Positions 4,834 to 8,074 of a stretch of DNA of 34,456 bases are shown in pieces. Made by a program: the position numbers and the translations under genes. The stretch's first letter is position 1. Each line of letters opens with the position of its first letter. Location of the stretch: positions 1-34,456 of the IMG/VR virus record IMGVR_UViG_3300025294_000211, one strand, 5' to 3'. Under the pieces are notes generated by a model. That model worked only from the letters and a program-made list of their open reading frames with translations, searched no databases and had not been told where the DNA came from. The DNA comes from a virus.

Positions 4834-5006
4834 TAGACGGTCCTTTCCGCGATGATGGTTCGGTGGGTCTGCTCGGTCCGCACGAAGCCGATCGCGTAGA
4901 GCGCGAGGAGGGCGGCCAACAGGATCAGGAAGCAGGCGGCGTCGTAGAAGGCGCGGTTCGAGCGCTTCAGCGCGTCTAGGTCGGCGTTGCGGGTCTGTGC
5001 GCTCAT
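4833..5006 (-). CDS. 57-residue single-span membrane protein
   Basis: This small gene encodes 57 residues with one hydrophobic helix (about residues 23-42, CFLILLAALLALYAIGF) after a short charged N-terminus beginning MSAQTRNADL. Its ATG overlaps the upstream stop as ATGA, and its TAA overlaps the next ATG as TAATG, so it sits tightly between two other genes; this tiling is the main support that it is real. The charge pattern suggests a type II or type III inner-membrane protein, but the topology is uncertain. The function is unknown. Small membrane proteins at this position are common in phage early operons. Confidence 0.7.
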   Translation of the reverse strand: MSAQTRNADLDALKRSNRAFYDAACFLILLAALLALYAIGFVRTEQTHRTIIAERTV

Positions 5007-5323
5007 AGCCCGTCCCCCAACTCGCGCCGGTGCTCGGCGGCGTCCTCGGCTGCCATAGCGTCCTTGTCGGCTGCGTCTTCGAGAAGGTGGTTCTTGAAGC
5101 CGTCGCTCTCGTAGATCTCGTGCTCAACCCAGCTGGGGAGGGGGAGCTCGACGGATTCCAGCATTGCCCGTATCTGCTCGACCTCGACCGAACGCGGCTC
5201 CTCCGGCTGGGTGAGCGTCGCAGCGCGGTACCGGTTGACCGAGTAAGCGACCTCTAGGTCCAACTCGATATCGAGGCCGCCGACCGAGATGAGGAGCGGA
5301 GTTTTGATGTGGTACTTGCTCAT
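5003..5323 (-). CDS. Hypothetical acidic phage protein (106 aa)
   Basis: I do not recognise this protein. It begins MSKYHIKTPLLISVGG and has a beta-rich first half (LDIELDLEVAYSVNRYR) and an acidic, helical C-terminus (EDAADKDAMAAEDAAEHRRE). A longer reading frame runs up to 5497, but ATG at 5321-5323 has a clear AAGGAG about 8 nt upstream and overlaps the upstream gene by 4 nt, so I prefer it. The leading 'LLISVGGLDIELDLEVAYSV' strand pattern could form a small beta domain. The protein belongs to the leftward early operon and may work with the recombination genes after it. That is inference only. Confidence 0.75.
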   Translation of the reverse strand: MSKYHIKTPLLISVGGLDIELDLEVAYSVNRYRAATLTQPEEPRSVEVEQIRAMLESVELPLPSWVEHEIYESDGFKNHLLEDAADKDAMAAEDAAEHRRELGDGL

Positions 5324-6215: not shown

Positions 6216-6244
6216 ATATTCGCGACAATCGCAAAATAAGTCAA
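6216..6244 (-). promoter_or_regulatory. Left early promoter (pL-like)
   Basis: On the minus strand, -35 TTGACT (6239-6244) and -10 GAATAT (6216-6221) are separated by exactly 17 bp. Transcription would start near 6209, leaving a leader of about 33 nt before the ATG at 6176. The spacer and -10 overlap a 15-bp dyad (6220-6234) that is identical to one at the right promoter. This is the best sigma70-like promoter in the window by eye. Repression by the phage repressor is inferred. Confidence 0.75.
6220..6234. promoter_or_regulatory. Repressor operator, left site 1
   Basis: TCGCGACAATCGCAA is an imperfect dyad with 6-bp half-sites around a 3-bp centre. The identical 15 bp occur at 7807-7821. It overlaps the -10 and spacer of the left promoter, so binding would block transcription. 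The likely ligand is the repressor encoded at 7002-7727 or the Cro-like protein at 7832-8074. Confidence 0.75.
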
Positions 6245-6253
6245 CAAACAATT

Positions 6254-6268
6254 TTGCGACTGGCGCAA
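6254..6268. promoter_or_regulatory. Repressor operator, left site 2
   Basis: TTGCGACTGGCGCAA has the same 6-3-6 geometry as the other sites, and the dyad extends further outward (ATTTTGCG...CGCAAAAT, 6251-6271). It lies just upstream of the left -35, with its centre 34 bp from the centre of left site 1. Three further partial half-sites follow at about 8-bp intervals to 6290. Binding by the phage repressor is inferred. Confidence 0.65.
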
Positions 6269-6296
6269 AATCGCAAAATCGCGAAATTGCGGGCAA

Positions 6297-6602: not shown

Positions 6603-6716
6603 GATCTGACTCGCATATCCTGTTGGCTGCAAACGGCGCGCCACTACCTTTTGTGGCAAGCGAAATATTTCTGAAAATCGACTCGACTCTCGGCTGCATT
6701 CCTGCTGTTTTGACGA

Positions 6717-6731
6717 GAACAAAACAGGAAC
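6717..6731. promoter_or_regulatory. Alphaproteobacterial LexA (SOS) box
   Basis: GAAC-AAAACAG-GAAC matches exactly the GAAC-N7-GAAC direct-repeat operator known for LexA of Rhizobium, Sinorhizobium, Agrobacterium and other alphaproteobacteria. It ends 16 nt before the ATG of the gene at 6748, just after a TTGACG hexamer (6710-6715) that could be a -35. It also lies upstream of the divergent lipoprotein gene. The match is seen; LexA control is inferred. Confidence 0.75.
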
Positions 6732-6747
6732 ATTGTAGGAGAAAAAA

Positions 6748-7017
6748 ATGATGCGTAACGCTCCCGTAGATCACCCCGACGCCTTGCGGCTCGTCGTTGA
6801 ACTTTCGAGCGTGTACGTAGCTTGCGATGATTGCGGGCACTCCCGCATCCTCCGCCTCGACAATCTGACGAAGGTCGCGGAACTCGGCGTTCACAACTAC
6901 ATGCAACTTTGCCGGAAGATCCGCTGCAGTGAATGCCCGAAGAAGCCGCCCGCTTTCCGGAACCTGACCATTCGCCCGACATGGCGGTGTGATGAGGTGC
7001 TTCAGAGCATCGCATGA
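6748..7017 (+). CDS. Probable SOS-controlled zinc-ribbon protein (89 aa)
   Basis: This 89-residue protein contains CDDC (about residues 26-29) and CRKIRCSEC (about 55-63), a spaced cysteine pair arrangement fitting a small zinc ribbon. The segment between is helical (LDNLTKVAELGVHNYMQ). It has a strong ribosome-binding site (TAGGAG, 7 nt before ATG at 6748). A LexA box 16 nt upstream of the start implies induction by DNA damage. The 3' end overlaps the 3' end of the convergent repressor gene by 16 bp, so its transcript would run into, and be antisense to, the repressor mRNA. It may therefore interfere with the lysogenic state. The biochemical role is unknown. Confidence 0.8.
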   Translation: MMRNAPVDHPDALRLVVELSSVYVACDDCGHSRILRLDNLTKVAELGVHNYMQLCRKIRCSECPKKPPAFRNLTIRPTWRCDEVLQSIA

Positions 7018-7727
7018 AACACGACTTTGTGGACGCTGAAGACTTTGTCCGCAGGGAACTCAAGTTCGTGCTGTTCGCCCTCGCCGGGGTTGTACTGATA
7101 AAGGCGCACGATGTCCGCAGAGCGTGACTCGTAGCGCTTGAGGTAGCTGTAAACCTCGTCGTCTTCGACCACCTGCACAACTACATCGTCGCCTTGCCGC
7201 ACCTTGAGATGCGGGTTCACCCAGGCTGTTTCGCCGTGGAAGAAGCGCGGCTCTCCGGAGCGGCCGTCTACTTGCACCGCATAGGCGCCTTCGACGCCCT
7301 CAAGCCCGGGCGGGCAAAACACCTGGGCGATATCCTGCCCGTTCATGATGAAGCGGCCATTCTTGCCGGCCGAGATGTGGCCTCGCAACGGGATCGAGGT
7401 GTCGCCGGGGAACGATTGCCAGCGCGGCGGGAAGCTCGCGTTCGGCTTCGGCATAGGTCGCGCGACTGGCGCCATGGGCGACGAGCCTTGAAGCCAGTTC
7501 GTCATCTGCTCGAAGCCAGGCGGTAGCTCGCCGAAGAACTTCGCCATTGCCTCGATCTCCTGCAGAGAGATTTGGCGGCGCTTCTTCGGATCGTCGCTAT
7601 GTAGTTCCTTCGATCGCGTGATCTTGTCGTTGGACATGCCGGTAGCTTCGGCGAGCTTTGATGCTACCCCGCGAGCCGCGACTTTCTCCGCAAGCCATTG
7701 TTTCAGTTCATATTGTGGGTCACTCAT
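7002..7727 (-). CDS. Phage repressor of the LexA/CI type, S24 peptidase-like
   Basis: This 241-residue repressor maintains lysogeny. Residues about 10-60 form a helix-turn-helix domain, followed by a proline-rich linker (about 83-105). The C-terminal part is a LexA/UmuD-like S24 domain: the cleavage site AG at 120-121 in GHISAGKNG, the probable nucleophile Ser157 in VDGRSGEP (the usual methionine after serine is glycine here), and the general base Lys197 in YSYLKRYE. RecA-stimulated self-cleavage is therefore plausible. The ATG at 7725-7727 has GAGGA about 8 nt upstream. It is divergent from the Cro-like gene, with operators between, and its leader carries a further dyad, pointing to autoregulation. 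Its 3' end overlaps the SOS-controlled gene. Confidence 0.92.
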   Translation of the reverse strand: MSDPQYELKQWLAEKVAARGVASKLAEATGMSNDKITRSKELHSDDPKKRRQISLQEIEAMAKFFGELPPGFEQMTNWLQGSSPMAPVARPMPKPNASFPPRWQSFPGDTSIPLRGHISAGKNGRFIMNGQDIAQVFCPPGLEGVEGAYAVQVDGRSGEPRFFHGETAWVNPHLKVRQGDDVVVQVVEDDEVYSYLKRYESRSADIVRLYQYNPGEGEQHELEFPADKVFSVHKVVFHAML

Positions 7728-7761: not shown

Positions 7762-7776
7762 TCGCGAATATCGCAA
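7762..7776. promoter_or_regulatory. Repressor operator, right site 2
   Basis: TCGCGAATATCGCAA has the half-sites TCGCGA and TCGCAA, identical to those at 6220 and 7807, with a different 3-bp centre. It lies at about +1 to +10 of the predicted repressor promoter, so occupancy would repress repressor synthesis. Confidence 0.7.
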
Positions 7777-7780
7777 ATTA

Positions 7781-7810
7781 ATTATCGCGACCCTATTGAC
7801 TTCTTGTCGC
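7781..7810 (-). promoter_or_regulatory. Repressor promoter (pRM-like)
   Basis: On the minus strand, -10 GATAAT (7781-7786) is very good and the -35 GCGACA (7805-7810) is weak, with an 18-bp spacer. Start of transcription would be near 7774. The -35 overlaps the operator at 7807-7821 and the right promoter on the other strand, so the two promoters compete for the same DNA. Confidence 0.6.
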
Positions 7811-7824
7811 GACAATCGCAAATT
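7796..7824 (+). promoter_or_regulatory. Right early promoter (pR-like)
   Basis: -35 TTGACT (7796-7801) is the same hexamer as in the left promoter, followed by 17 bp and -10 CAAATT (7819-7824), which is weak. Transcription would begin at about 7831, one base before the ATG of the Cro-like gene, implying a leaderless message. The spacer holds the 15-bp operator at 7807-7821. Confidence 0.5.
7807..7821. promoter_or_regulatory. Repressor operator, right site 1
   Basis: TCGCGACAATCGCAA is identical over 15 bp to the left operator at 6220-6234. It sits inside the spacer of the right promoter and overlaps the -35 of the repressor promoter, as expected for the switch operator of a lambdoid-like circuit. 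Confidence 0.75.
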
Positions 7825-7831
7825 TCGCGAC

Positions 7832-8074
7832 ATGAGCGAAAAACATCTCGACCCCGCAAAATCCATCATCGGAAAGATCGGCATCGAAAAGGTGGCCGAG
7901 GTTACTGGCAAGCATGTCTCCCGGGTGTACCGCTGGATGTACCCGAAAGAGAAGGGTGGCACCGGTGGGCTGATCCCCCAGTCCGATGCCCCGGCGCTGC
8001 TGGCATACGCCAAGTCGAAGAGGATCCCGCTCAAGGAGAAAGAATTCTTCCCGGTGCGGGAGGGCGCCCAATGA
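7832..8074 (+). CDS. Cro-like helix-turn-helix regulator
   Basis: This 80-residue protein (MSEKHLDPAK...) is a small Cro/YdaS-like DNA-binding protein. The HTH is about residues 15-37 (KIGIEKVAEVTGKHVSRVYR), followed by WMYPKEKGGTGG and the AP-x-LLAYAKSK helix common in rhizobial phage Cro-like proteins. It is divergent from the repressor and first under the right promoter, the place of cro. No Shine-Dalgarno sequence is seen before the ATG at 7832, and the predicted transcript starts about one base upstream, so it may be translated as a leaderless mRNA. An upstream in-frame extension would overlap the operators and is rejected. Its stop overlaps the next gene's ATG. Confidence 0.85.
   Translation: MSEKHLDPAKSIIGKIGIEKVAEVTGKHVSRVYRWMYPKEKGGTGGLIPQSDAPALLAYAKSKRIPLKEKEFFPVREGAQ

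Follow-up and report, generated by a model that had tools for sequence, protein, structure and literature searches.

The DNA considered here, hereafter the window, is the whole IMG/VR virus record IMGVR_UViG_3300025294_000211 (34,456 nucleotides), to which, among named genomes, a prophage of Ensifer adhaerens comes nearest (99% protein identity). Its plus strand carries a small zinc-ribbon gene, proposed to encode an antirepressor, which lies behind a LexA box and a pair of methylation sites and runs convergently into a CI-like repressor gene. The features of this locus are as follows, with distances in nucleotides (nt) or base pairs (bp):

6680..6689, plus strand: tandem GANTC, GACTCGACTC, CcrM-type methylation sites over the likely -35 (CTCGAC, 6682-6687); the sole tandem GANTC in the 34,456-nt window
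6705..6710, plus strand: probable -10-like element CTGTTT, 17 nt after CTCGAC, proposed from an alignment of upstream regions and not a consensus match
6717..6731, plus strand: LexA box GAAC-N7-GAAC, GAACAAAACAGGAAC, an exact match near the expected transcription start
6748..7017, plus strand: open reading frame (ORF) with two CxxC pairs, encoding a zinc-ribbon protein of 89 amino acids, the proposed SOS-induced antirepressor
7002..7727, minus strand: CI-like repressor with a helix-turn-helix (HTH) N-terminal domain and an S24 C-terminal domain (Ala-Gly site, Ser157, Lys197), assigned by Pfam S24, Foldseek and alignment with LexA
7005..7448, minus strand: C-terminal domain of the repressor, co-inherited with the zinc-ribbon gene according to alignment, reverse search and identity comparison

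An earlier sequence-only reading had placed a LexA box at 6717-6731, ahead of a zinc-ribbon gene convergent with the repressor gene and overlapping its 3' end. Both statements hold: the box is found exactly at that position, and the zinc-ribbon gene (6748-7017, plus strand) shares 16 bp at its 3' end with the S24 repressor gene (7002-7727, minus strand). The ATG of the zinc-ribbon gene comes 17 nt after the box, and AGGAG (6737-6741) stands between them. Within the window, GAAC-N7-GAAC occurs exactly three times against 1.25 expected, and three or more copies were obtained in 13% of shuffles, so the count was dropped as evidence; the remaining two copies (14024 and 21374) are inside coding sequence and were set aside for that reason. 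The box at 6717-6731 is significant far beyond chance because it is conserved, and not because of the count, with an exact GAAC-N7-GAAC present in 112 of the 114 loci that encode the zinc-ribbon protein, all of which were defined by protein homology.

The 114 loci examined for the box comprise a first set of 70 IMG/VR relatives (58-99% identity) together with Agrobacterium phage Rivra, 21 named genomes (all Rhizobiales) and more viral contigs added by profile searches, and distant relatives from a search of 297 Rhizobiales genomes. In Rivra (L074, PV764937.1), the zinc-ribbon gene lies unannotated at 5001-5264, with the left genes on one side and the CI gene on the other. The two exceptions are L061, which has one mismatch, and L203, which has no box. 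At 99 loci an exact box in the same orientation lies fewer than 80 nt upstream of the start codon, at a distance that, where tabulated, is nearly always 18-34 nt and mostly 27-32, while 13 loci have a box in the opposite orientation only, some 60-103 or 325 nt away. A check by sequence of the group at about 325 nt placed the box upstream of an extra small ORF that is followed by the zinc-ribbon gene. Even the most distant relatives (20-28% identity) keep the box, GANTC and a convergent S24 repressor. The LexA control of the zinc-ribbon gene that had been proposed earlier is therefore supported by the retention of the box at almost all loci and in both promoter layouts, from which we infer LexA binding at 6717-6731 and induction by damage. 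As a separate observation, 6694-6712 and 6720-6738 form an imperfect inverted repeat across the LexA box (74% complementary), with no obvious conservation in relatives. A small ORF of the type FVVQ/YIVQSY... was also recorded at L062, L065-L067, L069, L072, L091, L095, L257 and L392; it lies ahead of the zinc-ribbon gene in the reverse-box operons, and in L257 and L392 directly behind the dual promoter described below.

The zinc-ribbon protein is under constraint in its own right. Its presumed zinc ligands Cys26, Cys29, Cys60 and Cys63 are invariant down to 20% identity, Cys55 is invariant within the close family, and the median ratio of nonsynonymous to synonymous substitution rates (dN/dS) is 0.065 for the part of the gene outside the repressor overlap. 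Such strong purifying selection indicates that the protein matters, and not the transcript alone. The AlphaFold2 model of the protein (predicted local distance difference test score, 83) has no PDB fold match at E <0.4, and the protein has no Pfam match above the cut-off and none in NCBIfam. Its profile found nothing significant among PDB sequences and showed a weak, non-significant likeness to the zinc ribbons of RNA polymerase and of the ribosome. PHROGs, Pfam and NCBIfam gave no significant match to any characterised antirepressor, individual antirepressor sequences not having been compared directly. No homologue was found on plasmids. Weak profile matches in other alphaproteobacteria (L207, L208, L210, L221-L223) come without a convergent S24 repressor and were left uncounted; among these weak relatives, L207 (G491:C204) and L210 have GTTC-N7-GTTC boxes upstream, and L207 directly precedes an argininosuccinate-synthase-like ORF.

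The repressor scores 30.8 bits against Pfam S24 (cut-off 23.3), and a Foldseek search with its model is led by lambda repressor (9.6e-6) and LexA (4.4e-4), with UmuD also among the best folds, while PDB sequence searches with the repressor and with a profile of its C-terminal domain returned nothing significant. Its Ala-Gly site and the dyad of Ser157 and Lys197 align with A84-G85, S119 and K156 of LexA, the LexA sequence used having been checked at its landmark residues. From the residues kept, RecA-mediated cleavage is conceivable in this phage, and the second route to induction besides cleavage that the sequence-only reading had envisaged may operate here as well. Among relatives the situation differs: the cleavage dipeptide of 73 distinct C-terminal domains is AG in 35, GG in 33, TG in 3 and SG in 2, so that Gly, Thr or Ser replaces Ala in 38 of them. 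RecA-mediated cleavage may therefore be weak or absent in many relatives, in which the zinc-ribbon route may be the main one.

The zinc-ribbon gene is strictly paired with this one type of repressor C-terminal domain. In Rivra and at all 70 loci of the first set, the 3' end of the zinc-ribbon gene is overlapped by a convergent S24 repressor ORF (by 16 bp in most), and a convergent repressor with the same C-terminal domain was present at all of 33 further loci. Over the relatives as a whole, the two genes overlap by up to 140 bp, while in distant ones that keep promoter and protein they stand about 50 bp apart. A reverse search by the C-terminal domain recovered 80 loci, including three contigs new to the set, in each of which a diverged zinc-ribbon gene is accompanied by an exact box; the pairing is one-to-one, in that each C-terminal-domain locus fetched has the zinc-ribbon gene, and vice versa. 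Alignment revealed one S24 C-terminal domain fused to several unrelated HTH N-terminal domains, and the mean identity over 74 distinct pairs is 67% for the zinc ribbon and 68% for the C-terminal domain against 25% for the N-terminal domain. In the pair L027/L032 the respective values are 98%, 95% and 21%, and in this pair and L008/L022 identity is 13-21% in the N-terminal domain as against 91-98% in the C-terminal domain and zinc ribbon. These contrasts indicate that the box, the zinc-ribbon gene and the C-terminal domain travel as one cassette that is independent of operator specificity. Since co-inheritance arises partly from physical linkage, it suggests, and does not prove, direct contact between the zinc ribbon and the C-terminal domain.

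The immunity region is flanked by putative operators of the repressor, with the start of the rightward operon on its right-hand side:

6220..6273, no strand assigned: putative left operator region with TCGCGACAATCGCAAA-type repeats (repeat family D1, copies at 6220 and 6254)
7762..7844, no strand assigned: putative right operator region with the same D1 repeat (copies at 7762, 7807 and 7825), between the repressor and Cro-like genes
7832..8074, plus strand: small Cro-like ORF, first of the rightward operon, so called from its position, with no family match in Pfam or PHROGs

No copy of D1 was found at the zinc-ribbon promoter. A position outside the putative repressor operators, together with the one-to-one linkage and the purifying selection, supports the earlier proposal that the gene works in the manner of LexA-controlled antirepressors.

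In addition to the LexA box, the promoter carries the GANTC element, which had been missed by the sequence-only reading and lies about 37 bp upstream of the box without overlapping it. GANTC is the CcrM site, and GcrA has been reported to bind methylated GAnTC over the -35 and recruit RNA polymerase; mipZ has two juxtaposed GAnTC, and the same work included tests of the Sinorhizobium and Brucella GcrA proteins (PMC3667746). In 44 non-redundant forward promoters (<70% identity, picked by protein homology and not by the GANTC motif), at least one GANTC lies 20-50 nt before the box in all 44 and both are present in 25, compared with composition-shuffle chances per promoter of 0.12 for one and 0.0004 for both. 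Positions 1, 2, 4, 5, 6 and 7 of the 10-mer are fixed at 91-98% and positions 9-10 at 80-86%, while the N positions count among the more variable ones (commonest base 66% and 84%), figures that lean towards the motif because the best 10-mer was picked by score. Moreover, GAGTC occurs at +23 or +24 from the box start in 12 of the 13 loci with the reverse-box layout. No consensus promoter was found on the plus strand, and relatives carry TGCTTTTT where the window has CTGTTT. CTCGAC, the 17-nt spacing, the T-rich stretch and a box at the start site would fit a weak promoter that is assisted by GcrA and blocked by LexA. The conserved element, together with its wider occurrence given below, suggests, and does not demonstrate, dual control by damage and by methylation (GcrA/CcrM).

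Taken together, the zinc-ribbon gene probably encodes an SOS-induced antirepressor that acts on the C-terminal domain of the repressor. In the lysogen, host LexA on 6717-6731 would silence the gene; upon DNA damage LexA would be cleaved and the zinc-ribbon protein made, which would then bind the S24 C-terminal domain, the part constant between heteroimmune phages, and bring the repressor off its operators. Antirepression might thereby extend across heteroimmune phages with a common C-terminal domain. As the likely -35 carries tandem CcrM sites, full transcription would probably also need methylated GANTC and predicted binding of GcrA, which would tie induction to replication or cell-cycle state.

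Other roles could be imagined for the zinc-ribbon protein. It might be an SOS-induced transcription factor that turns on lytic promoters, like the small zinc activators of phage late genes, with the repressor not inactivated; a small zinc ribbon with invariant Cys pairs would suit such a role, as would the weak, non-significant profile likeness to RNA-polymerase and ribosomal zinc ribbons, but this is improbable, given that phages differing in other respects strictly pair the gene with a single repressor C-terminal domain and that it is co-inherited with that domain while operators and N-terminal domains change. The sequence-only reading had also stressed transcription into, and antisense to, the repressor message. 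On this view the LexA-controlled transcript would exert its main effect on the repressor gene through antisense RNA or transcriptional interference, or would continue through that gene into the Cro-like operon. The convergent 16-bp overlap, the lack of a terminator-like site 3' of the zinc-ribbon gene on the plus strand and the start of the rightward operon past the repressor at 7832 agree with this; however, selection acts strongly on the protein, the overlap is not conserved and gives way to gaps in distant relatives that keep box and protein, and in one group some 325 nt and another ORF separate the promoter from the gene. An antisense effect on the repressor is thus not upheld as the key mechanism and is regarded as quite improbable; read-through past the zinc-ribbon gene is feasible, but it is not what selection preserves. 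It seems very improbable that the protein is an SOS-made brake protecting the repressor or delaying induction, for which 434 Hex, which blocks repressor autocleavage, offers a precedent (PMC3564112): the protein does pair with a cleavable-type domain, and some relatives keep Ala-Gly, Ser and Lys, but the classical Ala-Gly site is absent in 38 of the 73 C-terminal domains, leaving less to protect, and Hex is produced alongside the repressor in the lysogen and not under LexA.

As regards the promoter, GANTC might be conserved as a -35 hexamer alone, unrelated to methylation. CTCGAC is one base off the alphaproteobacterial -35 CTTGAC and stands 17 nt before the T-rich -10-like stretch, as this explanation would expect, but positions 1-2, which are outside the hexamer, are as fixed as the rest, whereas the N at position 3 inside it varies between C, T and A; promoters that lack one GANTC retain the other, so that at least one is present in all 44, and the GAGTC of the reverse-box loci recurs at a set place. 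This explanation is thus conceivable though unlikely. Several points nevertheless weigh against the antirepressor reading with a methylation-dependent promoter. The role consists of predicted binding and predicted induction, the zinc ribbon is without a recognised relative among antirepressors, and close physical linkage alone would be able to keep the C-terminal domain and the zinc ribbon together without contact. In addition, GACTCGAC could itself plausibly serve as a -35, and its conservation may be due in part to that role, while the chance figures rest on composition shuffles and on promoters related by descent. Conserved GANTC at the SOS genes imuA and ruvC has been found to be without regulatory effect and ascribed to overlap with the LexA motif (Adhikari et al., PMC7987155), an explanation that differs from the case here, where GANTC and the LexA box are separate.

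Among known systems, the LexA-controlled antirepressors (Tum, GfoA/GftA and N15 AntC) likewise have a LexA box in their promoters. GfoA/GfhA of Gifsy-1/-3 and GftA of Gifsy-2 of Salmonella are small LexA-controlled phage proteins that inactivate the repressor by binding it and whose action crosses between heteroimmune phages (PMC3121763), whereas the zinc-ribbon gene here overlaps the repressor gene, is partnered by an S24 domain in which catalytic residues are retained, and has a GANTC element such as is not reported in PMC3121763. Coliphage 186 Tum and the N15 antirepressor are also SOS-controlled as cited in PMC3121763; Tum differs in having 146 amino acids and a DinI-like half, and that paper describes neither as a zinc ribbon beside the repressor. 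GcrA/CcrM-dependent promoters similarly have GANTC over the -35, in tandem as in mipZ (PMC3667746, PMC7987155), and CGACTCG in the window is the reverse complement of a YGAKTCG match; the present promoter differs in belonging to a phage, in its LexA box downstream and in a role for methylation and GcrA that is predicted. Like lambda CI and LexA, the repressor has an HTH and an S24 domain with aligned Ala-Gly, Ser and Lys, but it has a LexA-controlled convergent partner gene, and its cleavage is predicted from residues. The proposed prophage switch would thus belong with the LexA-controlled antirepressors and differ in its dual promoter; open-licence papers on GANTC with LexA and prophages, on CcrM with prophage induction and on zinc ribbons with antirepressors yielded no report of this combination.

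The dual element extends beyond the zinc-ribbon family. When viral contigs were scanned for GACTCGAC-N22..32-GAAC-N7-GAAC without regard to protein, at least 118 readable loci were obtained; among the scan matches listed, a small CxxC ORF follows 56 of the 65 that have the full tandem and 15 of the 53 that lack it. The full pattern occurs 33 times in 397 Rhizobiales genomes against 0 for the reversed control, and about two thirds of the loci read there are host imuB, the rest being prophage-type small genes. Host imuB of the SOS mutasome (L377-L389, L394, L401-L405) has the layout GACTCGACTC-N(20-30)-GAAC-N7-GAAC, suggesting methylation-linked control of SOS mutagenesis; these promoters have the same order of GANTC and LexA box as the phage promoter but serve a host DNA-damage gene, mostly have a clear TTATAA -10 and are unlinked to a repressor. 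The reverse-box layout, with 2 matches in the 397 genomes against 1 in the control, is therefore unsupported outside the zinc-ribbon family. A survey of all GAAC-N7-GAAC in Ensifer G001 as a host regulon proved too noisy (229 versus 152 in the reversed control), and a survey of alphaproteobacterial phages found GcrA sites without positional asymmetry (PMC9437464).

Behind the dual promoter, a second small zinc-ribbon family (LHIRCENC...C..C) was seen at L235, L237, L238, L241, L252, L275 and others, several members being convergent with a different S24 repressor type (VEAGAFREVDEFDQSE). As well, small proteins without CxxC (FVVPPDD..., VILSGPL..., FVIVAPAS...) occur there at L265, L320, L329, L338, L390 and L393, of which L265, L320 and L329 adjoin S24 repressors that belong to another type. 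When small-ORF types were matched automatically with repressor types, the outcome was clean for type 0 (47/52) and noisy for the others, because some of the convergent ORFs picked are spurious frames. It is tentatively proposed that Rhizobiales prophages use an AND-type promoter, which would require both that LexA be cleaved and that the tandem GANTC be in a GcrA-recruiting methylation state, so that lytic entry would be confined to cells that are damaged and have reached a suitable point of the cell cycle; the same dual promoter would serve host imuB and several unrelated small repressor-linked proteins.

These results suggest that many Rhizobiales phages wake via a small protein that blocks the repressor and is made from a promoter responsive both to DNA damage and to cell-cycle state. 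The cassette, found in Ensifer, Rhizobium, Agrobacterium, Mesorhizobium, Phyllobacterium and Ochrobactrum, would represent a widespread and apparently overlooked prophage switch with a testable partner domain. Its promoter class may join DNA damage to CcrM methylation in host mutagenesis genes and prophages alike, and cell-cycle gating of prophage induction becomes directly testable. Moreover, a common C-terminal domain with swappable DNA-binding halves predicts that heteroimmune prophages would cross-induce one another in polylysogens.
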